Below are positions 13,255 through 26,996 of a DNA stretch of 64,000 bases, one piece after another. The notes under the pieces are model-generated. The model was not told the origin of the DNA, searched no databases, and saw only the letters and a list, made by a program, of their open reading frames with translations. Source of the DNA: Wenzhouxiangella sp. XN201 (GTDB taxonomy: Bacteria > Pseudomonadota > Gammaproteobacteria > Xanthomonadales > Wenzhouxiangellaceae); the NCBI RefSeq assembly GCF_011008905.1, contig NZ_JAAIVI010000019.1, positions 1 to 64,000 on the forward strand, written 5' to 3'. The position numbers and the translations under genes were made by a program. How positions within the stretch are numbered: position 1 is the stretch's first letter; every line of letters begins with the position of its first letter.

Positions 13255-13296
13255 CTGGTGCCGGGATTCCGAGCTTTCCGAGCGGCCATTCATTCG

Positions 13297-14895
13297 ATGA
13301 GACGCATGACCTGCAATTCAACCGCGGCGGCCATGAGAGTCGCCACCGAACGCTTGAGCTCCCCTGATAACGGCGGTGCATTCAAGGCGAAGCTGCTGGG
13401 ATTGATCTGCCTGGCAATGGTTTCCACACCGCTACTGGCGGTGAACTGCACCCCGGATTCGATCACCCTGTCCTCGCAGTCGGAGGTGGACGGCTTCCAG
13501 GCCAACCATGGGCCCTGCGACACCATTGTCGGCGTGCTGACCGTATCCGGCGGGGACATCACTGACCTGGCTCCCCTGTCCGCGATCACCACGGGAATAA
13601 TCAACAGCAAGATTCTGATCCAGAACAACCCCTCGCTAATCAACCTCGACGGCCTTTCCGGGCTGGCTAGCGTCTATTGGATCGAGATCAACAGTAACCA
13701 GGCCCTGACCAGCATCAGCGGTTTATCCAACCTCGGGTCCGTGAGTGGCCCATTGATCCTCCATGGCAATACATCGCTCACCAATGTCACCGGCCTTGAA
13801 GGCGTAACCAATCTGACCGGGGGCGCCCTCTTCCTGATGGGAAATGACAACCTGAGTGATCTGTCCGGATTATCAAACTTGACCAATATCACCGCATCGC
13901 TAGCGATAAGAAATAATGGATCCCTCGCGACCCTGGACGATTTAACCGCGTTGGAATCCGTCGGTTCCTCTATAGGCATAGACCATAACGATATGCTGAC
14001 CAGCATCGCCGGCCTCTCCGGTGTGAGCGGTTTCAGCGGGTGGCTGGAAATCACGGGAAACCCGGTCCTCGGTAGCCTGGAGGGAGTGTCGGGGATCACG
14101 TCCCTGGAAGGCCTGCGAATCCGGTCCAATCCATTGATTACCAATGTGGACAATCTATCAGGCGTGACCACGATCGGTAATGCGTATTCTGCAGTAGAGA
14201 TCTACAACAATGCATCATTGGAGAATCTCGATGGTCTCGCGGCCTTGGTCAGCCTGGACGCAGATCTCTGGGTCACCGACAACCCGCAACTGGACCAATG
14301 CTCTGGCCTTGAGACCCTGCTGGATGAGGTGGACGATGCGCAGCCGGGCCCGGGCCCCGGTGCCGCCGGCATCCCCGATATCAATGGCGATGTCATCCTG
14401 AGCGGCAACCTGAGCGGATGCAATGCGGTCGAGGAGATTGTTGATACAAGCCTGTTGCCTCCCAACGATGCGAATTTCATTGCCGGGGAGTCGGAGTTCC
14501 TGCTCAAAGGTTTCGGGGTGACTCGTGGCTGCCTGGAATCCATGATCCGCTTACCGGGCCCCATGACCTCCCAGTCACGGAACTTGCTCCATGCATGTGC
14601 CATGCAGGATTATGCTGAAGACGAGACGCTGGTGTACCGCCCTGCCGACCAGTCATGCAGAACCCTGCGCGCTCGCAACGTTGAAGCCGTTTCCTACGAG
14701 TTCCCGGTCCATGTGCCGCATAGTCCCGACATTGGCTCACTCGAGGCGGTTTCCGATGCAATGTTCCTGGAGGATGATGCCGCTTTCCTGGTCCTTAACC
14801 TGCGCACGCAGGAACTGACCCGCGCGAGTTCGCTCGACTGCCCGCCCCCGCGGCTTGAGCCTCCCGAAGTGATCTTTGTCGACAGCTTTGAATAG
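13297..14895 (+). CDS. Secreted receptor-L-domain-like repeat protein with F-x-D-x-F-E tail
   Basis: About 532 residues with a signal segment (KLLGLICLAMVSTPLLAVNC) and a long solenoid of short leucine-rich-like units of the receptor-L-domain type: LINLDGLSGLASV, LTSISGLSNLGSV, LTNVTGLEGVTNL and so on, about ten units. A Cys-containing cap and a ~150-residue C-terminal domain follow, ending VIFVDSFE. Role unknown; such repeats are usually surface binding modules. The start is uncertain: a GTG at 13258 and ATGs at 13297 and 13333 are all in frame. It lies 42 bp (or 3 bp) after the Hcp-like gene, so co-transcription is likely. Confidence 0.75.
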   Translation: MRRMTCNSTAAAMRVATERLSSPDNGGAFKAKLLGLICLAMVSTPLLAVNCTPDSITLSSQSEVDGFQANHGPCDTIVGVLTVSGGDITDLAPLSAITTGIINSKILIQNNPSLINLDGLSGLASVYWIEINSNQALTSISGLSNLGSVSGPLILHGNTSLTNVTGLEGVTNLTGGALFLMGNDNLSDLSGLSNLTNITASLAIRNNGSLATLDDLTALESVGSSIGIDHNDMLTSIAGLSGVSGFSGWLEITGNPVLGSLEGVSGITSLEGLRIRSNPLITNVDNLSGVTTIGNAYSAVEIYNNASLENLDGLAALVSLDADLWVTDNPQLDQCSGLETLLDEVDDAQPGPGPGAAGIPDINGDVILSGNLSGCNAVEEIVDTSLLPPNDANFIAGESEFLLKGFGVTRGCLESMIRLPGPMTSQSRNLLHACAMQDYAEDETLVYRPADQSCRTLRARNVEAVSYEFPVHVPHSPDIGSLEAVSDAMFLEDDAAFLVLNLRTQELTRASSLDCPPPRLEPPEVIFVDSFE

Positions 14896-14912: not shown

Positions 14913-16394
14913 CTAGAACTCGAATCGATCCCTGAACAGGAAGTCGTTGCCGAACTCGTAAGGACCGAGATCGACGATGCCTTCGACAATTCGGTCATAG
15001 CCGTCGAGATCCAGGTCGTATCCAACTATTAATGCATTGTCGCCGGCGTTGACGACCGGAGAAAACTCGGCGGGATGATAGTCACCATCCTGGGTCGGCG
15101 CACTGGCCGGGCTGGCCGAGAAAGTGAATTGGGGATTATTGGCGGCACTGGTGCCGTCGAGATTGCCGCTGCCGCCCAGATCGGCGGCACTGAATCCCTG
15201 GATCAGGCTGGATTCCACGTCATCCGTGCCGAGTATCCGTATGGCGGATGAAGCGTTTCCCGTCCCCGTTTGATCCTGGTTGTTCCAGACGATCGAGTTG
15301 TGAATCGCTCCGATGTAGACGGCACTGATGCCGCCCCCGTTGCCGGCTTGGGCGCGATTACCGGCAACGGTCACATTGATCAGGTTAAGCGGCGAAGTGG
15401 AGGACTGGACAAAGATGCCGCCGCCCGCATTCCCGGCAAGATTGCCGCTGACCAGCGCATTGACCAGGGTGATGTCGCTGCCGCCGTTGCTGAAAATGCC
15501 GCCGCCTGCTCCGCCACTGCCATCGGCTGATTCAGCGAGGTTCCCACGGAAGACCGAGTTCACGATCTCGGTCGTGCTTCGAAGCGTATGCATGCCGCCT
15601 CCCAGGTTTCTTGCCAGGTTCCCGCTGAAACTGACGCGATCAAGCGTTGCGATCCCGACCCCATCGGCGATATTGAGGCCCCCACCCACATTGGCAGAAT
15701 TGTCGACGAAAGCGGAATCGGTGATCCCCACGCTGCAGAACTGACCGTGAATACCACCACCGTTGCCGGTTCCCGCTGCATTCTCGATGAAGCTCGACTG
15801 ATCGATGATCAACATGCACCCCGTCTGGACAGCGTAGATCCCGGCGCCCGAGCTGCCAGCCTCATTGCGGTACAGGGTCACGCGTAAAAGCGAAAGCTCG
15901 ACCGCGCCAGTTATATAGATGCCGGCACCGGACCCGGCCACGCCATGACGAATCGTCAGATCGGCCATCGAGACCTGTGAACTCCCGGAGATCGTCACCA
16001 CCCGGCTCGGATTGACTGCCTCGGAAGGCTGAGCGTGGGCTTGCACGATGGTGCCCTCCTCGCTCTCTCCAACCAGGGTCAGCGACTGACCAATGGTCAG
16101 CAGCTCCGTATACACCGCATCGGCAATCTGGATGGTATCGAAAGCAGCCGCGGCATCGATGGCCCTGGAAATGGTCAGGCACGGGGAAGCCTGCGAACTG
16201 CAGTCGTTGGCGCCGCCCTGATCGTCGCCGGCGATGCCATCGACGTACCGGGTCAGACCGCCCCGCGGCACGTCTTGCCGGGTCTCAGCCCCGGCATCCG
16301 TGGCCACTGCCATGGAACAGCAGAATGCAGCTGAACAAACCAGCGAAACAGCGAATGATGAACCCGCCAGGGATGGGACGATACGAAATGCCAT
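14913..16394 (-). CDS. Secreted right-handed beta-helix protein (Pmp-like repeats) with F-x-D-x-F-E tail
   Basis: The 493-residue product has a signal peptide (residues 1-~35), an N-terminal VDGIAGDDQGGANDC segment typical of secreted beta-helix proteins, and many imperfect repeats with GGGI and N-S-x-F (NSVFRGNLAESADGSG, GGGIFVQSSTSPLNLINVTV), as in chlamydial Pmp-type polymorphic proteins. It ends FGNDFLFRDRFEF. It is probably exported to the surface; the ligand is unknown. GGGAGG six bases before the ATG at 16394 fixes the start. It converges on the L-domain gene, with 17 bp between stop codons. Confidence 0.82.
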   Translation of the reverse strand: MAFRIVPSLAGSSFAVSLVCSAAFCCSMAVATDAGAETRQDVPRGGLTRYVDGIAGDDQGGANDCSSQASPCLTISRAIDAAAAFDTIQIADAVYTELLTIGQSLTLVGESEEGTIVQAHAQPSEAVNPSRVVTISGSSQVSMADLTIRHGVAGSGAGIYITGAVELSLLRVTLYRNEAGSSGAGIYAVQTGCMLIIDQSSFIENAAGTGNGGGIHGQFCSVGITDSAFVDNSANVGGGLNIADGVGIATLDRVSFSGNLARNLGGGMHTLRSTTEIVNSVFRGNLAESADGSGGAGGGIFSNGGSDITLVNALVSGNLAGNAGGGIFVQSSTSPLNLINVTVAGNRAQAGNGGGISAVYIGAIHNSIVWNNQDQTGTGNASSAIRILGTDDVESSLIQGFSAADLGGSGNLDGTSAANNPQFTFSASPASAPTQDGDYHPAEFSPVVNAGDNALIVGYDLDLDGYDRIVEGIVDLGPYEFGNDFLFRDRFEF

Positions 16395-16716
16395 GGACAA
16401 CCTCCCGACAAACAGTCCCCTTGCTTCCTTCTCGCGCTTTCCGTTTCCGCCAGCCATTTCGCAGGGTGGAAGTGCGCAAATACACCTCCCGATCTCGGGG
16501 GGCTCAAGAGTCTTAAGCGCAACTCAAACGTGAATCCGCCAAACTCGATGCAGCATCGTTCCGGCCAACGCGCACACCCTCCGGCCAGGCTTCCCGGTGG
16601 TTACCTTTGGCCGGCGCTGGCATAATGCCGGTAATCGAGGGATGCACAGAGGGACTCATGGACCGTGATGATCTTCACGTGATGTCGCGGCCTGAAAGCG
16701 CGGCCTGCCGGGGTCG

Positions 16717-17853: not shown

Positions 17854-17869
17854 TGTGATTTATTTCACA
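17854..17869. promoter_or_regulatory. CRP/Clp-type binding site upstream of the kinase gene
   Basis: TGTGA-TTTATT-TCACA is an exact match to the CRP consensus TGTGA-N6-TCACA, 50 bp before the start codon of the Ser/Thr kinase gene, with a possible -10 element (TAATAT at 17882-17887) downstream. In Xanthomonadales the protein reading this site is Clp, which responds to cyclic di-GMP. Spacing to a promoter is not certain. Confidence 0.75.
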
Positions 17870-17919: not shown

Positions 17920-18825
17920 TTGGGCGATATCAATGACCACGACTACACCAGCGTCATCGGTCGAAGCTTCGGCAACTTCGTGGTCGTGCGTGAACTCGGG
18001 CGCGGTGCGATGGGGGCGGTGTTCATCGGCTATCAGAAAACGCTCAAGCGCCAGGTTGCGATCAAGCTGCTGCCCAAGGCGATTGCCAGCAGCAAGGCCG
18101 CCCGCCAGCAATTCCGCGACGAGGCCGAGACCATCGCGGTGCTCAGCCACCCCCGCATCATCACGATTTTCGAAAGCGGCGAGGACGAGGACTACTTCTA
18201 CCAGGTGATGCAACTGGTCGAAGGCCAGGATCTCGCCCGTATCATTTCCAGGCTGCGGCGACATCCCGTACCCACGCGGCGCGTCCTGCCGCTGCACCAC
18301 AGCATCCGGCTGGTGGGCGAGGTGCTCGAGGGGCTGGAGTTCGCACACGAGGAAGGCGTGGTGCACCAGGATCTCAAACCGGCCAACATCCTGGTCGACA
18401 ACCGCACCGGCGGCGCCCTGATCGCCGATTTCGGCATTGCCAAGACGCGTCGTATCGAGTTCTACGCCCGGGGCATGGTGGTCGGCACGGCGCAGTACCT
18501 ATCGCCCGAGCAGGCTGCCGCCGATGACACCGACCGGCGCACCGATATCTATGCCGTTGGCGTCATCCTGTTCGAGCTGCTCGCCGGCACGCTGCCCATC
18601 CGCAACGAATCGGGCAAGGAGATGATCGCTCGCAAGATCGGGCAGCCCCACACCTTCTTCCTCAAGCCGCCCTCGGCCTGCTCGCCGTGGATCGACGAAG
18701 GCCTCGAGGACATCATCGACAAGGCTACCGCCATCGACCCGGCCAGGCGCTTTGTCAGCGCACGCGCATTCGCCCAGGCGATCAACCGCTGGCGCCAGTC
18801 ACAGCGGCAAAAGGCCGCAACGTGA
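17920..18825 (+). CDS. Soluble Ser/Thr protein kinase (HQD variant)
   Basis: A 301-residue kinase with no membrane segment: glycine loop LGRGAMGAVFIGY, Lys49 in VAIKLL, catalytic loop VVHQDLKPANIL (Asp151; HQD rather than HRD), DFG at 170-172, and GTAQYLSPEQ in the activation loop. All residues needed for catalysis are present. The start is probably TTG at 17920. The stop overlaps the GTG start of the next gene (GTGA), so the kinase and the 735-residue protein are made together; that protein is the first candidate substrate. A perfect CRP-type site lies upstream. Confidence 0.9.
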   Translation: MGDINDHDYTSVIGRSFGNFVVVRELGRGAMGAVFIGYQKTLKRQVAIKLLPKAIASSKAARQQFRDEAETIAVLSHPRIITIFESGEDEDYFYQVMQLVEGQDLARIISRLRRHPVPTRRVLPLHHSIRLVGEVLEGLEFAHEEGVVHQDLKPANILVDNRTGGALIADFGIAKTRRIEFYARGMVVGTAQYLSPEQAAADDTDRRTDIYAVGVILFELLAGTLPIRNESGKEMIARKIGQPHTFFLKPPSACSPWIDEGLEDIIDKATAIDPARRFVSARAFAQAINRWRQSQRQKAAT

Positions 18826-21029
18826 GCCCGCCCGGCGCGCACAATCTCGATGCCCGCTCGGCCGAGCTGATCGCCCGCCAGATCAACTCCGCCTTCATGA
18901 ACGCCTGCGGCTTCGGCATGGACCACCCGACCACCGAGCGCGCCCTGGAAATCTTCTACACCACGCTCGCCGATGCGCTCGAGCACGACCCCTCGCTGTC
19001 GCTGATCCTCGACCGCGGCGCCCTCTTTATCGAGAAGCACCCGGTCGGTGCGCGCTTCAACCCCCGGCGCCTGATCGATTCGTTCAACGAGATGGGCCTG
19101 GAATCGGTCACGTTCAGGCCGGGCTTCAACACCACCGATGCCTGGGCACTGATCTCGGTGCTCTCGAAGCTGCTCGACTACCCGTCGCTGGAGGCCGCCG
19201 AAGCCGACCTGGGCAAACTCCAGTCCGGCGCCATCCAGTTCAATCACATCGTTTATCGCAAGGTCACTTCCGACCAGAAGGTGGTCAGCAGTTCCGACCC
19301 CGGCGCGGACCCGGGCGACAAGATCTACGACAGCAAGCGGCACACGCCCGCCTCGAGAGCCAGCGGGCGCGTGCTCGACCAGCTCGATTCGTTCTTCTCC
19401 CTGAGCGGACTGGCCGGCGACCCGGACGCGGCCGCCGAGCAGTTCACCGCGTCGGCCGGCGAGGGCGAGCAGAACCGCGCCCGGCTGGTCGAACATCTCA
19501 AGAAACTGGTGCGCGAAGTCGAGACGGGCAGCGGCGAGGTCGAGAGCCTGTCGCCGGATGAACTGTTCACCGCCATGAACACGCTGCGCCAGCGACTGCA
19601 CAAGTCCATGTCGGCGCGGCAGGACGCCGAGCGCATCATGGCCGAGGGTGGGGAGGTGGTCAGCGAGATCGACGAACTGACCTATTCGACCCTGGTCAGC
19701 CTGGTGCGCGAGGAATACCGCGGCGGCAACTTCTCGGTCAAGCGCATGGCCCAGATCATCAACCGCATGCTGCCCGATGCCGGCGACCTCAAGCGATTGC
19801 TGCCCAGGCTGCGCAAGGGCCTGATGGAAGAGGGCATGAAGCTCGACCAGTACACCGAACTGGTCCACGAGCTATCGAACGAGCTGCGCGGCGAACACCT
19901 GGTGCGCGCGCTCGAGAGCGGGGCGGAAAGCGTCGGCATGGATGTCGACGAGATCGTCCGGCAGATCCAGGAAGACCCCACCGAGGCCGCGCGGCTGGTA
20001 GCGCTGGCCAGCGAACTGCGCCAGGGCGGTGTCGACGACGACCAGCAGCTGTCGGCCGCCTTTACCGACTACATCGAGCGCGTCACCGAGAAACTGGCGC
20101 TCGACCGCTTCTCCAACGCCGACTCGGCCGACCCCGCCACCCTGAGCGAGCAGATCGCACGTGTTCAGAAAGAACTGATCGAGCGCATGAACCAGAGCGG
20201 CCTCACCTCCGAGGTCTCGAAACAGCTCGAGCAGGAACTCGAGCAACGCATGCCCCAAACGCGCGAGCACAGCACGGTGGCCCTGTTCGAACGCATGCTC
20301 AAGGGCAGCAAACAGATCAACGACGCGCTCGTGCTCGACTGGCTGGAACGCCAGATCGAAACCCGGCCCGAGCTGGAAGAGATGGCCAATGCCATCAGCG
20401 AACGACTCAAGAAACACGGCTACACGCCGCTGCAGGCCGCCCGGCTGATCGACCAGCTCGCCGAGCGCCTCGACCGCGAAGCCGAACCGATGCGCATGCC
20501 GCCGACGGTCCTGAGCGTGCGCAATACCGCGCTGTTCCTCAAGCACCAGGTCAAGAGCGCCCAGCGCTACAACAACCCCTTTTCGGCCATCAAGGTGATG
20601 GTCGAAAGGCTCAACCCCACCGAAGGCGGCAGCCCGCGCCGGCCGGGCAGAAGCGACATGCACGAAATCCTGCCCGAACTCTACTCCCGCATCGTCCGCC
20701 TGGCCCGCGACCTCGACCTGGTCGGCTCGCTCGAGAAATCACAACGCGCCGTCCCCCTCATCGTCCTGCCCATGACCGAAGCAGAGGGCGCCAACATCTT
20801 CCGCCAGCGCCTGATCGACGTGCTGGCCGAGTTCCCCTTCCGCCTCGACGGCGACGAGTACACGCTCACCTGCACCGTCACCGCCCTGGGCTTCGATCCC
20901 GAGACCGACGAGGACGCCAACGCCTTCGTCCAGCGGCTCAACCAGGTCCACCAGGAAAACCGGGCCGAATCGGCGAAAGCAGCCTCGCAGGGCGGTGTGA
21001 AGTCGGGCAACGACGGCACAACACCGTGA
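18822..21029 (+). CDS. 735-residue helical protein of unknown function, coupled to the kinase
   Basis: The GTG start overlaps the kinase stop; earlier in-frame codons lie inside the kinase gene. The protein is soluble and almost all alpha-helical. The first ~150 residues form a domain with HPTTERALEIFYTTLADAL, LILDRGALFIEK and MGLESVTFRPGF, a pattern I have seen in other bacterial proteins of unknown function but cannot name. The rest (about 170-735) is rich in charged helical segments with MSARQDAERIMAEGGEVV and repeated ~50-residue helical units suggestive of HEAT-like or coiled structure. There are no catalytic motifs. It is a likely scaffold or output of the kinase. Confidence 0.75.
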   Translation: MSPPGAHNLDARSAELIARQINSAFMNACGFGMDHPTTERALEIFYTTLADALEHDPSLSLILDRGALFIEKHPVGARFNPRRLIDSFNEMGLESVTFRPGFNTTDAWALISVLSKLLDYPSLEAAEADLGKLQSGAIQFNHIVYRKVTSDQKVVSSSDPGADPGDKIYDSKRHTPASRASGRVLDQLDSFFSLSGLAGDPDAAAEQFTASAGEGEQNRARLVEHLKKLVREVETGSGEVESLSPDELFTAMNTLRQRLHKSMSARQDAERIMAEGGEVVSEIDELTYSTLVSLVREEYRGGNFSVKRMAQIINRMLPDAGDLKRLLPRLRKGLMEEGMKLDQYTELVHELSNELRGEHLVRALESGAESVGMDVDEIVRQIQEDPTEAARLVALASELRQGGVDDDQQLSAAFTDYIERVTEKLALDRFSNADSADPATLSEQIARVQKELIERMNQSGLTSEVSKQLEQELEQRMPQTREHSTVALFERMLKGSKQINDALVLDWLERQIETRPELEEMANAISERLKKHGYTPLQAARLIDQLAERLDREAEPMRMPPTVLSVRNTALFLKHQVKSAQRYNNPFSAIKVMVERLNPTEGGSPRRPGRSDMHEILPELYSRIVRLARDLDLVGSLEKSQRAVPLIVLPMTEAEGANIFRQRLIDVLAEFPFRLDGDEYTLTCTVTALGFDPETDEDANAFVQRLNQVHQENRAESAKAASQGGVKSGNDGTTP

Positions 21030-21069
21030 TTCCCTCCCGGCCGGGTCGATGCTATATTCGATCTCGAAA

Positions 21070-21085
21070 TGTGATATAGATCACA
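21070..21085. promoter_or_regulatory. CRP/Clp-type binding site upstream of the 148-residue gene
   Basis: TGTGA-TATAGA-TCACA is a second exact TGTGA-N6-TCACA site, 32 bp before the next start codon. A -10-like TATATT (21053-21058) lies just upstream of it, which would put the site over the transcription start and favour repression, but the promoter is not certain. Confidence 0.72.
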
Positions 21086-21116
21086 AAAAAAGGGGACACT
21101 CAATGAGGTACTCACC

Positions 21117-21563
21117 ATGTCCGCCACCGAGATCTACGCACACCTGAAGAAGGATCAACCGAACAACTACCAGCCCACGCACCCGGACGGCTACTACTAC
21201 ATGTTCACCGGCGGCTACGGCTACGTGAACGGTCAGATCACAGCCGAACCGGTGGGCGACGACGACGGGCCGGCCGGAGAAATCGCGCTGTCGGAAGAAA
21301 GCAGTTCGTGGAAGATCAAGCTCAAGGACGACACCGGCGAGAAGTTCAAGATCGTGCAGTGGAACCTGGGCGAAGCGGGCATTCCCGGCGCGACATTCGA
21401 TCCCCCGCCCGACCAGGACTTCGACGGCACTGACAAGCTCACGATCACGGCTTCCAATATTCCAACCGGCCACCACAACAGCTACGACGGATACACCATC
21501 ACCGTGGAGAACAAGGACGGCACGCGCGTCAAGCTCGACCCCCGCCTCTACGATATCCGCTAG
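21117..21563 (+). CDS. Conserved-looking 148-residue protein of unknown function
   Basis: No signal peptide, membrane segment or known motif is visible. The protein is acidic and rich in Gly, Asp, Tyr and Thr (HPDGYYYMFTGGYGYVNG, GEKFKIVQWNLGEAGIPG, SYDGYTITVENKDGTRVKL), suggesting a compact beta-sandwich. GAGG lies eight bases before the ATG. It begins the second part of the island, directly after a CRP-type site, and ends 21 bp before the TIR gene, so it is probably co-expressed with the TIR and SLOG-like genes. The function cannot be inferred beyond that context. Confidence 0.75.
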   Translation: MSATEIYAHLKKDQPNNYQPTHPDGYYYMFTGGYGYVNGQITAEPVGDDDGPAGEIALSEESSSWKIKLKDDTGEKFKIVQWNLGEAGIPGATFDPPPDQDFDGTDKLTITASNIPTGHHNSYDGYTITVENKDGTRVKLDPRLYDIR

Positions 21564-21583
21564 ACGACGGCAGAGCCGGTCTC

Positions 21584-23620
21584 TTGAAGTACTGGGCCTA
21601 CTTAAGCTACGCGCACGCTGACGAGCAGCAGGCGCGCCGGGTGCATCGGCGGATCGAGTCATTCCGCGTGCCCCGTTCGCTGCGCGGCCAGGAGATTGCC
21701 GGGCAGGTGGTCGGAGCCAGGCTCCGGCCCCTGTTTCGCGACCGCGACGACCTGGCCAGCTCGGGCGACCTTCGCGACAGCCTGGAGGCCGCACTGCGCG
21801 AGTCCGGCGCGCTGATCGTGCTGTGCAGCCCGGCGGCCGCCACCTCGAAGTGGGTCAACCAGGAAATCCGTACCTTTGTCGCCGTCCACGGCACCGCTCG
21901 GGTCTTTCCGCTGATCGTCGCCGGCGAGCCCAACAGCGGTGGCGAGGATGAGTGCTTTCCCCCGGCACTGCGTGGACAAGGCCTCGACGGCCTCGAACCC
22001 ATTGCCGGCGACCTGCGAGCGCATGCCGACGGCCCGCGCGACGGCGTACTCAAGATCGTCGCCGGCCTGCTGGGCGTGGGCTTCGACGCCATCAAGCGCC
22101 GTGACGCACGGCGGCGCCAACGCACCGCGGTCGGCTTCGCGGTCGCCGCTTCGCTGGTCGCGGTCGTCACCAGCCTGACGGCCCTGTATGCCATCGAACA
22201 ACGCGACATCGCACAGGTCCGGCGCGGCCAGGCCGAAGACCTGATCGGCTTCATGCTGGGCGACCTGCGCACGCGATTGCAGGAGGTCGGCCGCCTCGAC
22301 GTGCTCGACGCCGTCGGCGAGAAGGCCGAAACCTACTTTGCCTCGTTGCCGGCAGGGGAGATCAATGACCATGCGCTGGAGAAACAGGCCCTGGCGCTGC
22401 GCCAGATCGGCGAGGTGCGCCTGCAGCAGGGCCAGCACGCAGCCGCCCAGCGCGCCTTTTCCGCTTCGCTGGCGCAGTTCGAGGTCCTGGCCGCGCGCAA
22501 CCCGCAAGACGCCGAAGTGCTGTTCGAGCGCTCGCAGGCGGAATTCTGGCTCGGCGCCAGCCACTACCAGGCCCTCGAACTGGACCGCGCCCGTCCGCTG
22601 TTCGAGCGCTACGCACAGAGCGCCGCCGAGCTCGTCGCCCTCGATGCCGACAACCCGGACTATCGCCTGGAAGAAGCCTACGCCATGTCCAACCTGGGTT
22701 CGCTGGCTGTTGACCAGGGCGACCTGGACGCCGCCGATGCCGCTTTCACCGGCGCCGGCGTTATCTTTGCCGAGCTAGCCAGCGACAGCCCGGACGACCC
22801 CAACCTGAAGTTCGAAGTGGCCGCCAACGATTCCTGGCTGGCCGCGGTGCGCGAAGCCGGCTTCGACTGGGAAGGCGCGGCCCGATTCCGGCGCGCCGCC
22901 GCTGATGCCCACGCCGCAGTCACCCGGGCCACCGACCATCCCTTCCACCGCCGCATCGAAGCGGAGGCCTGGACCAAGCGCGCTCGCGCCGAATTCGCCC
23001 TGGGCCGGGTGGACGCCGCGCTCGAGGCGCAATCGCATGCCATCGCCCTGTACGACACCCTGGCTTCGGGCGACCCCGACAACCTGGAATGGCGCGTGCA
23101 CTGGCTCAGTGCGCGCACCCGCCTGAACCGGCTCGCCCGCTTCGCCACCGCGACCGAGCACGCAACGGCCGAAAGCCACAGCGCTTTCGACGAGTTGCTG
23201 GCGATTGCCGCCGACGACAGTGACAATTCCATGTGGGCGGGGGAGGTGGCTTCGGCCGGCCTCGACCTGGCCCTCGTGCGCTTGCTGGACGACGACCCGG
23301 TCGGCGCCGACGACTATCTGACCCGAATCACCCCGCTGGTGATGGCCAACCTGTCCGCAGCCCCCGACGACCACATCACCGCGCGCCAGTTCTACGAGCT
23401 GGCCGTCCTGCAACAACTCGCCGGCGGCAAGATCGCAGTACCGGCCCGCACCCGCCTGGCCGAACGGCCGGATCAGCTGCGGGCCAACCGCCACCTGGCC
23501 GCTCTGCTTGCGCGGCTCGATGGTGACGCCGAAGCCGCCGAGCAGCTGGATGAAATCGTTCGGCAGGCCGGATTCCAGTCGCCCGACTATCGGGCGCTCG
23601 ACGCGCTGGCCCGGCGCTGA
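21584..23620 (+). CDS. TIR-domain protein with transmembrane helix and TPR-like C-terminus
   Basis: The 678-residue protein has an N-terminal TIR domain (residues 1-~135): AYLSYAHADEQQARRVHRRI, LFRDRDDLASSGDL (the usual F-R-D-x-x-D loop), ALIVLCSPAAATSKWVNQEI with Glu94 at the position of the proposed NADase glutamate, and RVFPLIVAGEP. One transmembrane helix follows (about 181-203), then ~470 residues of helical TPR-like repeats (AYAMSNLGSLAVDQGDLDAA). TIR domains of this type either bind partners or cleave NAD+. The start is a TTG at 21584. Its TGA shares a base with the ATG of the SLOG-like gene. Confidence 0.85.
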   Translation: MKYWAYLSYAHADEQQARRVHRRIESFRVPRSLRGQEIAGQVVGARLRPLFRDRDDLASSGDLRDSLEAALRESGALIVLCSPAAATSKWVNQEIRTFVAVHGTARVFPLIVAGEPNSGGEDECFPPALRGQGLDGLEPIAGDLRAHADGPRDGVLKIVAGLLGVGFDAIKRRDARRRQRTAVGFAVAASLVAVVTSLTALYAIEQRDIAQVRRGQAEDLIGFMLGDLRTRLQEVGRLDVLDAVGEKAETYFASLPAGEINDHALEKQALALRQIGEVRLQQGQHAAAQRAFSASLAQFEVLAARNPQDAEVLFERSQAEFWLGASHYQALELDRARPLFERYAQSAAELVALDADNPDYRLEEAYAMSNLGSLAVDQGDLDAADAAFTGAGVIFAELASDSPDDPNLKFEVAANDSWLAAVREAGFDWEGAARFRRAAADAHAAVTRATDHPFHRRIEAEAWTKRARAEFALGRVDAALEAQSHAIALYDTLASGDPDNLEWRVHWLSARTRLNRLARFATATEHATAESHSAFDELLAIAADDSDNSMWAGEVASAGLDLALVRLLDDDPVGADDYLTRITPLVMANLSAAPDDHITARQFYELAVLQQLAGGKIAVPARTRLAERPDQLRANRHLAALLARLDGDAEAAEQLDEIVRQAGFQSPDYRALDALARR

Positions 23621-25311
23621 TGTCAGGCGGCCTGCCCCGCGTCCCGCTTTCGCTGGGCGTGACCGGCCACCGCGACCTGGTCGAGGCGGAAATCCCCGCC
23701 ATCGAGGCCCGGCTTCGCGAACTCTTCGACCTGCTCGAGATCCGCTACCCCGACACACCCCTGCGACTGATCACGCCGCTGGCCGAAGGCGGCGACCGGG
23801 TCGCTGCGCAAGTTGCGCGCGAGCGCGACATCGATCTGGTCGTGCCCCTGCCGCTGCCGGTCGATGACTACGAGCAGGACTTTGCCGATGCCGATTCCCG
23901 GCAGAGCTTCCATGAGCTGCTGGCCGGTTCGACGGTGGTCGACGTGCACGCCGCGCGCGTGCACGACCAGGGCGACCGCGACCAGGCTTATGCACAGGCC
24001 GGCATCTACTGCGTCGATCACTGCCAGATCCTGATCGCGGTGTGGGACGGCAAGCCGGCCGAGGAGGGCGGCGGCACGGCCGACGTCGTCGAATACCACC
24101 AGTTCGGCGACATGGCCCGGCTGGGCCTCGACCCCTCCGAACGCCGCGGCCTGGCCAAGGACGATACCGACCTGGTCTACCACATCGTCTGCTCGCGCAA
24201 CCGCGACGACGGCGCGCCGGCCGAGAACCTGCGGCCCGGCAGCGCGCGCTGGCTGATCGCCGACCCCGACCGCAAGACGGTCGACGACATCCCGCCCAAC
24301 CTCAACCGGATGATCGAGCGCACCGGCGAGTTCAATCGCGACGTCGCAAAAGTGACCGACCCGGTATCACCGGCCGCCGTCCTGCCCGGCTGGCAGGACA
24401 AACTCGCCGGCCACCGCGACCTGGCGCGCACGGCCGGCTACTTCGCCCTGGCCGACCACCTGGCCACGCGCAATGCATGGCGCTACCGCATCGCCCTTCG
24501 CGTGCTCTACGTATTGGCCGCGCTGATGGGCATTGCCTTCATCGCCTATGCCGACCTCAACCGCCCGGAAATGATCGCTGCCTACCTGGTCCTGTTCTTC
24601 GTCGGCTTCGTGCTCTACCGCGTGGTGTCGCGACTGCAGTGGCACCGCAAGTTCCTCGACTATCGCGCCCTGGCCGAGGGGCTGCGCGTGCAGTTCTACT
24701 GGCGTCAGGCCGGCGTGTCGGGCCAGATACGCAACGACTTCGCCTACGACAACTTCCTGCAGAAGCAGGACATCGAGATCGGCTGGATCCGCAACGTCAT
24801 GCGCTTTGCCGGCGCGCCTGAAGACTTCCAGGCCCGCAGGGCAGGCGACGTCGACGACGTCATCGAACACTGGATCGGCCGGCCCGGGGGCAGCGGCCAG
24901 CTCGGCTACTTCGAGGCCCGCTGCCGCAGCCACCGCCGCCACGTCGCCCAGACCGACCGCCTGGTGGCCATCACCCTGTGGGCCGGCATCGTCATCACCG
25001 TCGCCCTGGCCCTGTTCCAGCATCGCCTGACCGACGTTGCACTCACCGGCATGGTCGCCGCCATGGGCATGCTGCCCCTGCTCGCAGCCGTCCGCGAGGC
25101 CTATGCCCACAAGGTCGCCGAAAAGGAGCTGCTCAAGCAGTACAGCTTCATGCTCGACATCTACCGCATGGCCCGCTTCCGCCTGTCGCGCTGCACCACG
25201 GCCAACCAGAAACGCGACCTGCTGCGCGCCCTGGGCGAAGCCGCCCTGGACGAACACGCCGAGTGGATTCTGGTGCACCGGGAACGGCCGCTGGAGCCGG
25301 GGAAGCTGTAA
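23620..25311 (+). CDS. SLOG-like Rossmann domain fused to a four-TM membrane module
   Basis: The 563-residue protein opens with SLGVTGHRDL (11-20), ITPLAEGGDR (51-60) and, later, AVWDGKPAEEGGGTADVVEY (140-159), the nucleotide-binding pattern of SLOG/LOG-like domains. Two helix pairs follow (about 290-311 with 317-335, and 449-468 with 473-490), separated by a cytoplasmic helical segment. This resembles SLOG-SLATT proteins, proposed to sense a nucleotide signal and act on the membrane. The neighbouring TIR gene could make or consume such a nucleotide. The assignment of the fold is by motif; effector function is inferred. Confidence 0.75.
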   Translation: MSGGLPRVPLSLGVTGHRDLVEAEIPAIEARLRELFDLLEIRYPDTPLRLITPLAEGGDRVAAQVARERDIDLVVPLPLPVDDYEQDFADADSRQSFHELLAGSTVVDVHAARVHDQGDRDQAYAQAGIYCVDHCQILIAVWDGKPAEEGGGTADVVEYHQFGDMARLGLDPSERRGLAKDDTDLVYHIVCSRNRDDGAPAENLRPGSARWLIADPDRKTVDDIPPNLNRMIERTGEFNRDVAKVTDPVSPAAVLPGWQDKLAGHRDLARTAGYFALADHLATRNAWRYRIALRVLYVLAALMGIAFIAYADLNRPEMIAAYLVLFFVGFVLYRVVSRLQWHRKFLDYRALAEGLRVQFYWRQAGVSGQIRNDFAYDNFLQKQDIEIGWIRNVMRFAGAPEDFQARRAGDVDDVIEHWIGRPGGSGQLGYFEARCRSHRRHVAQTDRLVAITLWAGIVITVALALFQHRLTDVALTGMVAAMGMLPLLAAVREAYAHKVAEKELLKQYSFMLDIYRMARFRLSRCTTANQKRDLLRALGEAALDEHAEWILVHRERPLEPGKL

Positions 25312-25331: not shown

Positions 25332-25444
25332 TTGCCCGTACGGGATAACTGGGATCCTGGGAGCGTGGCTAAGGCATATTTTTACCGAACGGGACAATCT
25401 GATATATTATTGGTCGGAATGATGCAAATTATCCCGATCGGTAA
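25332..25444. promoter_or_regulatory. hipBA promoter region with three related operator-like sites
   Basis: TTACCGAACGGGACAAT (25382-25398) and ATTATCCCGATCGGTAA (25428-25444) are near-perfect inverted copies of each other, and TTGCCCGTACGGGATAA (25332-25348) is a third related site. They surround the AT-rich GATATATTA (25401-25409), a probable -10 element. HipB autorepressors bind TATCC-N-GGATA-type palindromes, and these sites contain TATCCC/GGGATA. The last site ends two bases before the hipB start codon. Confidence 0.75.
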
Positions 25445-25447
25445 AAA

Positions 25448-25729
25448 ATGGATCCAATGCCTACCCACAACGCACCTCTGAGAACCCCCGCCGAACTGGG
25501 TGCAGCCCTGCGTGCCCAGCGCAAGGCGCAGGGACTCACACTGGAACAACTCTCCGGTCTGAGCGGTCTGGGCATGCGATTCCTGTCGGAGCTCGAGCGC
25601 GGCAAAGCCACGGCCGAACTGGGCAAGACCCTCGAAGTCATCGCCCTGTTGGGTCTCGACTGCTTCCTCGTACCGCGGTCGTCAACGAACTCGGCCGAAG
25701 GAAAGCACAGCCATGACGAATCAGGCTGA
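25448..25729 (+). CDS. hipB: HipB-type antitoxin (XRE-family repressor)
   Basis: A 93-residue protein with an XRE helix-turn-helix (ELGAALRAQRKAQGLTLEQL through GLGMRFLSELERGK). The C-terminal ~30 residues include the HipB-like strand ALLGLDCFLVPR. HipB binds the operators upstream and neutralises HipA. The ATG at 25448 is taken; a second ATG at 25457 (MPTHNAP) is possible. It overlaps hipA by 17 bases, the usual antitoxin-toxin arrangement. Confidence 0.9.
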   Translation: MDPMPTHNAPLRTPAELGAALRAQRKAQGLTLEQLSGLSGLGMRFLSELERGKATAELGKTLEVIALLGLDCFLVPRSSTNSAEGKHSHDESG

Positions 25730-26996
25730 TCCGGACCGACTCAACATCTGGCACGCCGGAAGGCTGGTGGGCGAGTTGTGGCGGGATCGACAGGACCGCA
25801 TCGGCTTCGCCTACGCCACCGACTGGCTCGATCACGGTTTCAGAATCGGTCACGTCCTGCCGCTGCAACCCGATCCGTTCGCACCGGAAGACGGCCAGGC
25901 CCACGGCTGGTTTTCCAACCTGCTTCCGGAAGGAGCCGCCCGCGAGCGGATCGTGCGCAACCTGGGTGTCGCCGACGACGACTTCGTCTTGCTGCGCGAG
26001 ATCGGTGGTGATTGTGCCGGGGCCCTCAACGTCCTGCCGCTTGACCAGCCCCTCGATAAACCGGGCGGCGCCGAAGCGCTCGACGAACGACGTTTCGAAC
26101 GAATTTTGCAACAGCGGGGGCAGGGCATTGCTCCCCGGCCAACGCCCAACGACCCTGCACCGCCGCGCCTTTCCCTGGCGGGGGCCCAGTCCAAGTGCCC
26201 CGTACTGATCCGGGATGGCGAATACTTCCTGCCGCACGGCGTAACGGCGTCCTCGCACATCCTCAAATTCGAGCTGCCCCAGTGGCGGCATGTGCCGGTC
26301 TACGAAATCTTTCTCAATCGAATCGCCGATGGCGTCGGCCTGCCCGTGCCCGAAACCCGACTGGAAGAACGTCACGGCCACCGATACCTCGTCATCCGCC
26401 GCTACGACCGGGAGGCTACAGACAAACATTGGCATCGCCTGCACCAGGAAGACTTCTGCCAGGTCGCCGGCCTGCGCGCCACGCGCAAATACCAGGCAGA
26501 CGGCGGCCCCGGGCTGGCCGATTGCGCAGACTGGATTCGAGAACTTAGCGAGAAGCCGGCAGAAGACCTCCTCAACCTGCTGCGCTGGCAGATCTTCAAC
26601 TGGCTGGCCGGCAACTCCGACGGCCATGCCAAGAACGTGGCCCTCGTCCAGGTACAGCGCAACGTCAACCGCTGGCGCCTGGCGCCGTTCTACGACCTGG
26701 TCTGCACACGCGCCTGGCCCAACCTGGACCGGCGCCTGGCGATGAACGTCGGCGGCGAAGCCGACCCAGGCCGTATCCGCACCGAGCACTGGCACGCCCT
26801 GGCCAAAGAAATGGGGATGCGCCCCCGGTTCGTGATGCGCGAAATCGCGAACATGGCTGAAGCCATCGATGAGGCTTTGCCAAACGTTCGCGTGAAGCTG
26901 CAAGAAGCCCACGGCCCGCTTCCGATGCTGCAGCAACCGGAGAAGATCATCCGCACCCAGTTGCGAATGGCCCGCGCCTTGCAGTCGGACAGCTAA
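25713..26996 (+). CDS. hipA: HipA-type serine/threonine kinase toxin
   Basis: The 427-residue protein has the HipA N-terminal domain (RIGFAYATDWLDHG, HGWFSNLLPEGAARE) and kinase core. The family signatures are SLAGAQSKCPV (ATP loop), RYDRE, the catalytic NWLAGNSDGHAKN and the metal-binding FYDLV. HipA of E. coli phosphorylates glutamyl-tRNA synthetase and causes persistence; related HipAs target other proteins. All catalytic residues are present, so the toxin is probably active. It is coupled to hipB upstream. Confidence 0.93.
   Translation: MTNQADPDRLNIWHAGRLVGELWRDRQDRIGFAYATDWLDHGFRIGHVLPLQPDPFAPEDGQAHGWFSNLLPEGAARERIVRNLGVADDDFVLLREIGGDCAGALNVLPLDQPLDKPGGAEALDERRFERILQQRGQGIAPRPTPNDPAPPRLSLAGAQSKCPVLIRDGEYFLPHGVTASSHILKFELPQWRHVPVYEIFLNRIADGVGLPVPETRLEERHGHRYLVIRRYDREATDKHWHRLHQEDFCQVAGLRATRKYQADGGPGLADCADWIRELSEKPAEDLLNLLRWQIFNWLAGNSDGHAKNVALVQVQRNVNRWRLAPFYDLVCTRAWPNLDRRLAMNVGGEADPGRIRTEHWHALAKEMGMRPRFVMREIANMAEAIDEALPNVRVKLQEAHGPLPMLQQPEKIIRTQLRMARALQSDS

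Follow-up and report, generated by a model that had tools for sequence, protein, structure and literature searches.

RRNPP receptors, which are cytosolic and belong to Gram-positive bacteria, read short peptides with their TPR domains. TIR proteins have been described beside effectors with two transmembrane (TM) helices of the SLATT type, and a response to ADP-ribose signals is predicted for such pairs in two accounts (PMC9503650, PMC7159879). The structures of SO1698 of Shewanella oneidensis, of the DP-EP family (PF08985), were released in 2010 (3n55 and mutants). Likenesses to all three are found in a locus of Wenzhouxiangella sp. XN201 (genome of 3.13 Mb), within the 64,000-nucleotide stretch of contig NZ_JAAIVI010000019.1 analysed here, referred to below as the window. 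Five consecutive genes encode a Ser/Thr kinase, a 735-residue protein, a 148-residue protein, a protein in which a TIR domain is followed by a TM helix and a TPR solenoid (TIR-TPR), and a protein with SLOG motifs and four TM helices (SLOG-4TM). A preliminary description of this DNA suggested a single kinase-gated TIR-to-SLOG immunity or stress module. The five genes are two unrelated modules standing side by side, module A (kinase and 735-residue protein) and module B (148-residue protein, TIR-TPR and SLOG-4TM). We lean towards the view that their neighbourhood is a matter of chance, and that module B (21.1-25.3 kb) forms a signalling unit complete in itself, with tag, receptor, TIR and SLOG components, downstream of a resident kinase/735-residue operon.

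Two unrelated modules at one site

The five genes are all present at 17920-25311 on the forward strand, as first described (Table 1). The junctions had been described as overlapping or short; this holds for the kinase/735-residue and TIR/SLOG junctions, where start and stop codons overlap, and fails for the junction between the 735- and 148-residue genes, a loose one of 87 nt containing a perfect CRP-like palindrome at 21070-21085. Homologues of the 735-residue protein were found in 23 of the 121 genomes searched, the window's own counted, and 19 of their loci were fetched (6.7-17 kb each, 261 kb in total). The kinase gene adjoins the 735-residue gene in 17 of these 19 mapped loci; the two exceptions (L105 and L106) have a shorter relative of the 735-residue protein and no kinase match. 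Kinase and 735-residue genes are thus a lineage-specific pair. TIR-TPR, SLOG and 148-residue genes occur in none of the 19 fetched loci (tblastn, E 1e-3; gene maps agree). The 735-residue protein, put forward as a new part of the TIR system, was accordingly rejected as such, and the proposed gating by the kinase is not supported. The preliminary description had itself named 735-residue homologues in contexts lacking TIR or SLOG partners as a finding that would refute its proposal, and for the 735-residue protein this is what the loci show.

Module B is found intact elsewhere. In genome G027, the 148-residue, TIR-TPR and SLOG genes lie in this order at 0.934-0.938 Mb (61, 72 and 78% identity to the window genes), which upholds the placing of the 148-residue protein alongside TIR and SLOG, and the 735-residue homologue lies far away at 1.918 Mb. 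Outside the window, the genomes with both 735-residue and SLOG genes (G012, counted on a weak SLOG match only, G027, G034, G038 and G041) carry them well separated, in G027 by about 1 Mb and in the other four on different contigs. Alignment of the window with its three nearest relatives (G003, G010 and G017) runs to 20.96-20.98 kb and resumes at 27.48 kb, and none has module B in between, so module B was either gained by insertion or lost at this site. The repeats flanking module B include no convincing target-site duplication.

Directly 3' of module B (25448-26996) stands a toxin-antitoxin-like pair encoding a helix-turn-helix (HTH) protein and HipA. G017 shares this pair (25.43-26.97 kb of the window) at the same site without module B, and it is absent there in G003 and G010; with its presence varying in this way, this site is an insertion hotspot. 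At 25379-25447, in the interval that separates module B from the HTH gene, there is a 23-nt inverted repeat, imperfect and accompanied by promoter-like hexamers, which is possibly the HTH/HipA operator.

The palindrome TGTGA-N6-TCACA occurs exactly twice in the 64 kb, against an expectation of 0.04 (0 of 100 shuffles reach two), and both copies lie upstream of genes, one before the 148-residue protein and one before the kinase. In 8 of 17 relatives a site differing from it by no more than one mismatch is retained 59-69 nt 5' of the kinase start; upstream of the 148-residue gene in G027, a TGCTATATTCG element and a TTGATATAGATCAC core are common with the window and the full palindrome is absent. 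Because each module has its own CRP-like site upstream, A and B are probably separate transcription units. They may be under one common CRP-like regulator, presumably CRP/Clp, and this shared control is the strongest remaining argument for a link between them. It would favour one five-gene immunity module in which kinase and 735-residue protein control the TIR-SLOG pair, as would the common strand and order of the genes and the matches of the kinase to PADLOC defence kinase models of the PD-T4-6 type (best E 1.7e-73); since about 35 PADLOC models match the kinase, however, the PD-T4-6 match may extend to other Ser/Thr kinases. The 735-residue protein itself has no Pfam match above cut-off, PelD_GGDEF being matched below it. 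With module B missing from every fetched 735-residue locus and from this site in three close relatives, with the modules far apart in G027, and with an 87-nt gap carrying its own operator between the halves, the five-gene kinase-gated module is largely refuted and in our estimate very improbable; a five-gene operon was rejected on the separation of A and B in other genomes, the relatives without B and the same 19 loci.

Table 1. Features of the five-gene locus (window coordinates)
Feature	Position	Strand	Module	Remarks
CRP-like palindrome TGTGATTTATTTCACA	17854..17869	+	A	upstream of kinase; exact match
Ser/Thr kinase, 301 aa	17920..18825	+	A	TTG start; Pfam Pkinase E 1.8e-48
735-aa protein	18822..21029	+	A	GTG start, overlapping kinase stop
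CRP-like palindrome TGTGATATAGATCACA	21070..21085	+	B	upstream of 148-aa gene; exact match
148-aa DP-EP-like beta protein	21117..21563	+	B	assigned by model match to SO1698, gene position and G027 homologue (61%)
C-terminal tag variant DPRLYD	21537-21554	+	B	within 148-aa gene
TIR-TM-TPR receptor, 678 aa	21584..23620	+	B	TTG start
SLOG-SLATT-like putative effector (SLOG-4TM), 563 aa	23620..25311	+	B	ATG overlaps TIR stop

Tagged proteins beside membrane TPR receptors

Relatives of SLOG-4TM were collected by a pattern-based scan of one genome from each of 84,980 species, and the best 80 of 236 were analysed; the nearest named relatives were one Lysobacterales record and one Wenzhouxiangella record. 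Among these best 80 of 236 loci, a TIR-TPR gene encoding more than 500 residues was present in 49, in 41 of them on the same strand, and it adjoined the SLOG-4TM gene in 36 of the 46 loci having at least 3.5 kb on both flanks. The gene pair is conserved across the order, which speaks for the TIR-to-SLOG/SLATT route first proposed.

In the TIR-TPR protein, the TIR domain occupies residues 1 to about 165, a single TM helix about 180-203, and a helical TPR solenoid the remainder. Its structure model (mean predicted local distance difference test, pLDDT, 84) shows the same TIR, long TM helix and solenoid, and the best Protein Data Bank (PDB) matches of the modelled solenoid are TPR proteins, for example LGN/Pins complexed with partners, although matches of this kind are generic for TPRs. 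An excess of basic residues on the N-terminal side of the TM helix was seen in 13 of 13 TIR receptors and also in 19 of 22 long receptors, mostly without TIR; because of this bias the output domain is predicted to lie inside and the TPR solenoid at the outer face of the inner membrane.

Beside or between the receptor genes stand small and diverse proteins of about 50-230 residues that end alike, for example in NPSIKNN, SDPRIVNGG or IDPRIRNNP. The consensus of this tag is (D/N)PxIxN; it was searched for loosely, as [DNH]Px[IVLM]x[ND] within the last 18 residues, and strictly, as [DN]Px[IVL]xN. An open reading frame (ORF) with the loose tag adjoins 61 of 87 TM-TPR receptors but none of 122 control genes, which were long genes with no receptor-family gene within 2.5 kb (55 from SLOG loci, 1 from a non-TIR locus and 66 from 735-residue loci, for which 18 of the 19 were used, L091 being excluded). 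The strict tag is carried by 57 of the 1318 genes called for receptor loci, by 0 of 228 for 735-residue loci (all 19) and by 0 of 56 for the window; judged by how often the motif occurs inside long genes, 0.00034 per protein would be expected. Near variants account for several of the 26 misses of the loose search, namely KPNIKNN, VPRIKPS, DPVWGN, DPQASN, DDPRIYSD, DPQVVC and, in L145, QPSIKNN. The 96 tagged ORFs include a few that are probably spurious (e.g. L111, L202, L212:8905 and the longer ORF of L187), and some of their starts were trimmed by script. In the 148-residue protein the tail, DPRLYD, varies at the I and N positions; the homologue in G027 ends in DPRIYD, and a DPRIYS tail is found in L215. 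Two larger tagged proteins, of 301 and 342 residues, stand beside TIR-TPR receptors in L162 (3805-4710) and L190 (4012-5040).

The loose tag was found at 40 of 51 receptors in SLOG loci, at 7 of 17 other TIR-TPR receptors and at 14 of 19 TM-TPR receptors of kinase or nSTAND1 type, which lack TIR. Since the non-TIR loci had been chosen as a negative control and proved tag-positive, the tag belongs with the TM-TPR receptor and not with one output, and the idea that it is specific to TIR and SLOG was dropped. Nine of the non-TIR receptors were scanned; four are Ser/Thr kinase-TM-TPR proteins and five have nSTAND1, in four cases with an N-terminal winged helix (Trans_reg_C). The association of tag and receptor is a computational result; we infer that the tagged partner binds the receptor.

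The survey was extended across the phylum to 299 genomes, of which 34 matched at 45 places; 20 of these were fetched and two plasmid loci added, making 22. Six of the 22 have a TIR, no TPR match and no tag. In the 16 with TPRs, the tag was found by script in seven (six strict), including all four loci from the same class. By eye, two more TIR cases outside the class were seen, L283 (DPTVSH) and L285 (DPKIVN, 19 residues from the end); outside the class no tag was found beside five non-TIR receptors (L293, L294, L295, L298 and L300) or two TIR receptors (L287 and L252). Elsewhere in the window's own genome, six weak TPR loci were checked and gave one unconvincing loose match (L250).

Another kind of C-terminal ending was noticed along the way. 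Two adjacent surface-like proteins of the window (13258-14895 and 14913-16457) end in FVDSFE and FLFRDRFEF, and similar endings, SDGFESP and NGFENSS, were seen in other loci; these ends are possibly another C-terminal sorting tag of the order.

The 148-residue protein and the DP-EP family

Evidence for a relationship between the tagged proteins and the DP-EP family comes from both directions. An alignment of 78 proteins (A3), comprising 76 hand-picked from the 96 tagged ORFs (short, doubtful and near-identical ones omitted), the 148-residue protein and its G027 homologue, gave a profile that matches SO1698 in the PDB at E 8.7e-9, and 8 of the 78 members match Pfam DP-EP weakly (best E 5e-4). 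In reverse, Pfam DP-EP genes were found in 1 of 369 genomes of the class and then in 14 of 118 of that genome's family; 13 of these 14 loci were fetched, a partial match in G552 being omitted. The DP-EP gene directly follows a TM-TPR receptor gene in 12 of the 13; the remaining locus is cut off by a contig end immediately 5' of the DP-EP gene. The preceding receptors have 1,069-1,109 residues with TPR matches at E 1e-46 to 1e-62, and in all nine scanned of the 12, Trans_reg_C, nSTAND1 and TPRs were found, that is, a winged helix-turn-helix (wHTH)-nSTAND1 type. A gene ending like YRAKAxGRN, an end which we take to be as in diguanylate cyclases, recurs beside most DP-EP receptors (L229, L232-L241), and L235 has two DP-EP genes.

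The AlphaFold model of the 148-residue protein, built from a 22-sequence alignment (A5), is all beta. Its Foldseek matches ranked 1-12 are all SO1698 chains (best E 8.8e-4, two at or below 0.001, TM-score by target 0.55-0.70, 11-14% identity), and the next are nitrite reductases at E 0.019; as modelled, the fold appears to be that of SO1698. Alignment A5 compared with a DP-EP alignment (A6) gave 98.8%, A5 itself holding DP-EP-like sequences. Two other groups of tagged proteins were compared in the same way: A9, from Dyella and Rhodanobacter with mostly N-P tails, gave 79% against A6 and matched SO1698 outside the tail at E 0.0018, while A8, the group with signal peptides, gave 62% and no PDB match. 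Because the model fold matches SO1698 and the sequence alone does not, the 148-residue protein is best described as a putative, divergent DP-EP-like protein rather than a DP-EP member. It was also considered as a phage or plasmid gene and rejected, since plasmids gave no match and neither did viral contigs when scanned by pattern. Two marginal matches, in G044 and G055 (E 0.005-0.007), cover 61 residues of long frames.

What the tail does can be read in two ways. SO1698 is reportedly cleaved at Asp-Pro, and its PDB chains have 119 residues, ending at the tail Asp, for the wild type, Y26F, K98A, P115A and Q118A, and 128 residues for D37A, S114A, D116A and P117A. These lengths are consistent with cleavage at Asp-Pro and would suit a tail serving as a sorting, maturation or self-cleavage signal instead of a TPR ligand, the small proteins being effectors that are set free or assembled once the receptor is triggered; so would some ORFs of 50-60 residues, low-complexity by eye, that share only the tail (L144, L148, L152, L155 and L174). 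Cleavage fits poorly, however, with the N-P, H-P, Q-P and K-P tails in 32 of the 68 tagged ORFs of TIR+SLOG loci, and of 14 DP-EP proteins compared by eye, 2 have Asp at the D37 position. Since D37 is so rarely kept, autocleavage may be special to some DP-EP proteins; with N-P tails and loss of D37 and S114 common, self-cleavage was rejected as a general conserved function. The tail-as-signal explanation as a whole we hold to be rather doubtful.

A tentative wider reading, in our judgement not quite an even bet, is that these loci represent a new ligand-receptor class, in which membrane receptors with outer TPRs and interchangeable outputs (TIR with SLOG-SLATT, Ser/Thr kinase or wHTH-nSTAND1) read (D/N)PxIxN on partners encoded by adjacent genes, DP-EP proteins being one branch of these. 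By a crude rule, 23 of the 68 tagged ORFs from TIR+SLOG loci have a signal peptide or lipobox, as do 2 of 10 from TIR-only loci and 1 of 18 from non-TIR loci. Because many tagged proteins lack an export signal, it is conceivable that the receptors of such a class sense, as a danger signal, proteins released from kin that have lysed; elsewhere, in different lineages, the partner would be exported and work in cis.

Several observations weigh against the proposed reading of module B and its 148-residue protein. Most tagged ORFs, the 148-residue one included, appear cytosolic while the TPR is predicted outside, a mismatch that would mean unusual export, a wrong topology call, or a receptor that reads proteins spilled by other cells. 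The 148-residue protein ends in DPRLYD(IR), lacks the final N and is missed by the strict tag. No more than two of the 121 genomes searched, G027 and that of the window itself, have a clear homologue of it, and in a class sample of 274 genomes only its own genome matched. Alone it gives no PF08985 match, no relevant PDB match and nothing above the Pfam cut-off; a two-sequence profile with the G027 homologue reaches only 0.9% against DP-EP, and the model was built, with a pLDDT of 74, from an alignment containing DP-EP-like sequences. D37 and S114, needed for SO1698 cleavage, are not generally conserved; in the 148-residue protein the S114 equivalent is Lys, and a Glu lies near the D37 position (by eye). 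Ten of the 46 fully flanked SLOG loci, among the best 80 of 236, are without TIR-TPR; outside the class, the script finds the tag in only 3 of 12 TPR-receptor loci (L284, Novosphingobium L251 and, loosely, L286); and the loci compared share phylogeny and hence are not independent.

TIR and SLOG proteins among described signalling systems

The TIR domain of the receptor matches Pfam TIR_2 (E 1e-10) and ThsB_TIR (PF08937; E 1.5e-8, 35.3 bits, cut-off 21.2), with weak TPR matches in the same protein; a PDB sequence search with the TIR gave no match. Glu94, in a W..E motif that we take to be the place of the catalytic Glu, is invariant in 14 of 14 sequences, and NADase activity is predicted, such a residue having a catalytic role in NAD-consuming TIRs (PMC11204291). 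In SLOG-4TM, the SLOG motifs GVTGHRD and EGGDR at the N-terminus are followed by two TM pairs. The window protein matches DUF4231 (E 0.0048) and NCBIfam SLATT_1 (E 0.002) below cut-off, and PDB profile and sequence searches with it gave no match. Its family alignment (A1) of 24 sequences is long and well conserved, and with E at or below 0.05 its members match DUF4231 (23 of 24, best 1.1e-6), SLATT_3 (13), SLATT_1 (9), YAcAr (8) and DprA (4). YAcAr is a SLOG family; the YAcAr and DprA matches are all weak, and both motifs are conserved in the family. Because family members match repeatedly, the SLOG/SLATT identity, weak in the window protein, gains support, and the membrane domain is of a predicted SLATT/DUF4231 type. 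On a Caballeronia plasmid (L253, 5064-8869), a DUF4231/SLOG gene stands next to one for a TIR and to a WD40 protein, so sensors built of other repeats may also accompany the TIR-SLOG pair.

A mechanism for module B can be proposed on this basis. The tagged 148-residue protein, or its tail, would be recognised by the outer TPR solenoid of the receptor, and recognition would alter the cytosolic TIR domain, which would then act on NAD and make a nucleotide of the ADP-ribose type. By analogy with Thoeris-type systems, the putative SLOG domain of the next protein would bind this nucleotide, and its SLATT-like membrane helices, by the same analogy and SLATT predictions, would then perturb the membrane.

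An immunity role for module B is possible yet unsupported, and its most specific form would be abortive infection of the Thoeris kind, in which the TPR or the 148-residue protein senses phage, the TIR makes a nucleotide and SLOG-4TM kills through the membrane. The ThsB-type TIR match favours it, and SLOG effectors sense cyclic ADP-ribose isomers, TM-type ThsA is thought to act on membranes (PMC11204291) and SLATT is a predicted membrane effector (PMC9503650). Yet PADLOC at E 1 gave no match for the 148-residue, TIR or SLOG proteins, and relatives of the SLOG protein are absent from 50,697 phage records, while viral contigs gave a single fragment. Within one family of the order (L074, L076, L077, L082, L084 and L085), the SLOG genes lie at a similar chromosomal place, among neighbours presumed to be tatABC, rhomboid and ExbD genes, a housekeeping-like setting unlike a mobile defence island. 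With the same tag and TPR module coupled also to kinase and transcription outputs, we consider abortive infection of the Thoeris kind unlikely.

The tag-receptor reading would have consequences beyond this locus. If it is true, a six-residue tail would be a general Gram-negative means of connecting one kind of sensor to outputs as different as kinase signalling, transcription and immunity-like responses. The previously unannotated 148-residue ORF becomes a candidate partner of a TIR receptor, and the receptor neighbourhood is, as far as the literature was searched, the first gene-neighbourhood clue to the function of DP-EP proteins; no paper linking DP-EP proteins or the tail to receptors was found in literature that mostly did not include subscription papers.

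In comparison with described proteins and systems, the 148-residue protein resembles DP-EP/SO1698 in its model fold, small size, C-terminal DPxIxN-like tail and place beside a TM-TPR receptor; it differs in having no sequence-level similarity, no S114 equivalent and no final Asn, and in a receptor output that is TIR rather than wHTH-nSTAND1. Like RRNPP receptors, the module B receptor would read a short peptide with its TPR, although here a membrane receptor bears the TPR and a folded protein the tail. The TIR-SLATT and SLOG-SLATT pairs of Burroughs and Aravind share the placing of TIR beside a SLATT-type membrane effector; in the parts of the descriptions available, no counterpart of the TM-TPR receptor or of the small tagged protein of module B is mentioned. 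In Thoeris, too, a TIR enzyme adjoins an effector with a nucleotide-sensing domain, and the TM-macro type is also membrane-bound (PMC11204291). In module B, however, TIR, TM and TPR make up one fusion protein, the set has a further gene for a tagged partner, and the putative effector combines a SLOG-like part with two SLATT-like TM pairs and has no SIR2 or macro match (Pfam, PADLOC, NCBIfam). TIR-SLOG/SLATT signalling is of a kind already known; new to it are a partner protein that carries the tag and a TM-TPR receptor that is shared.

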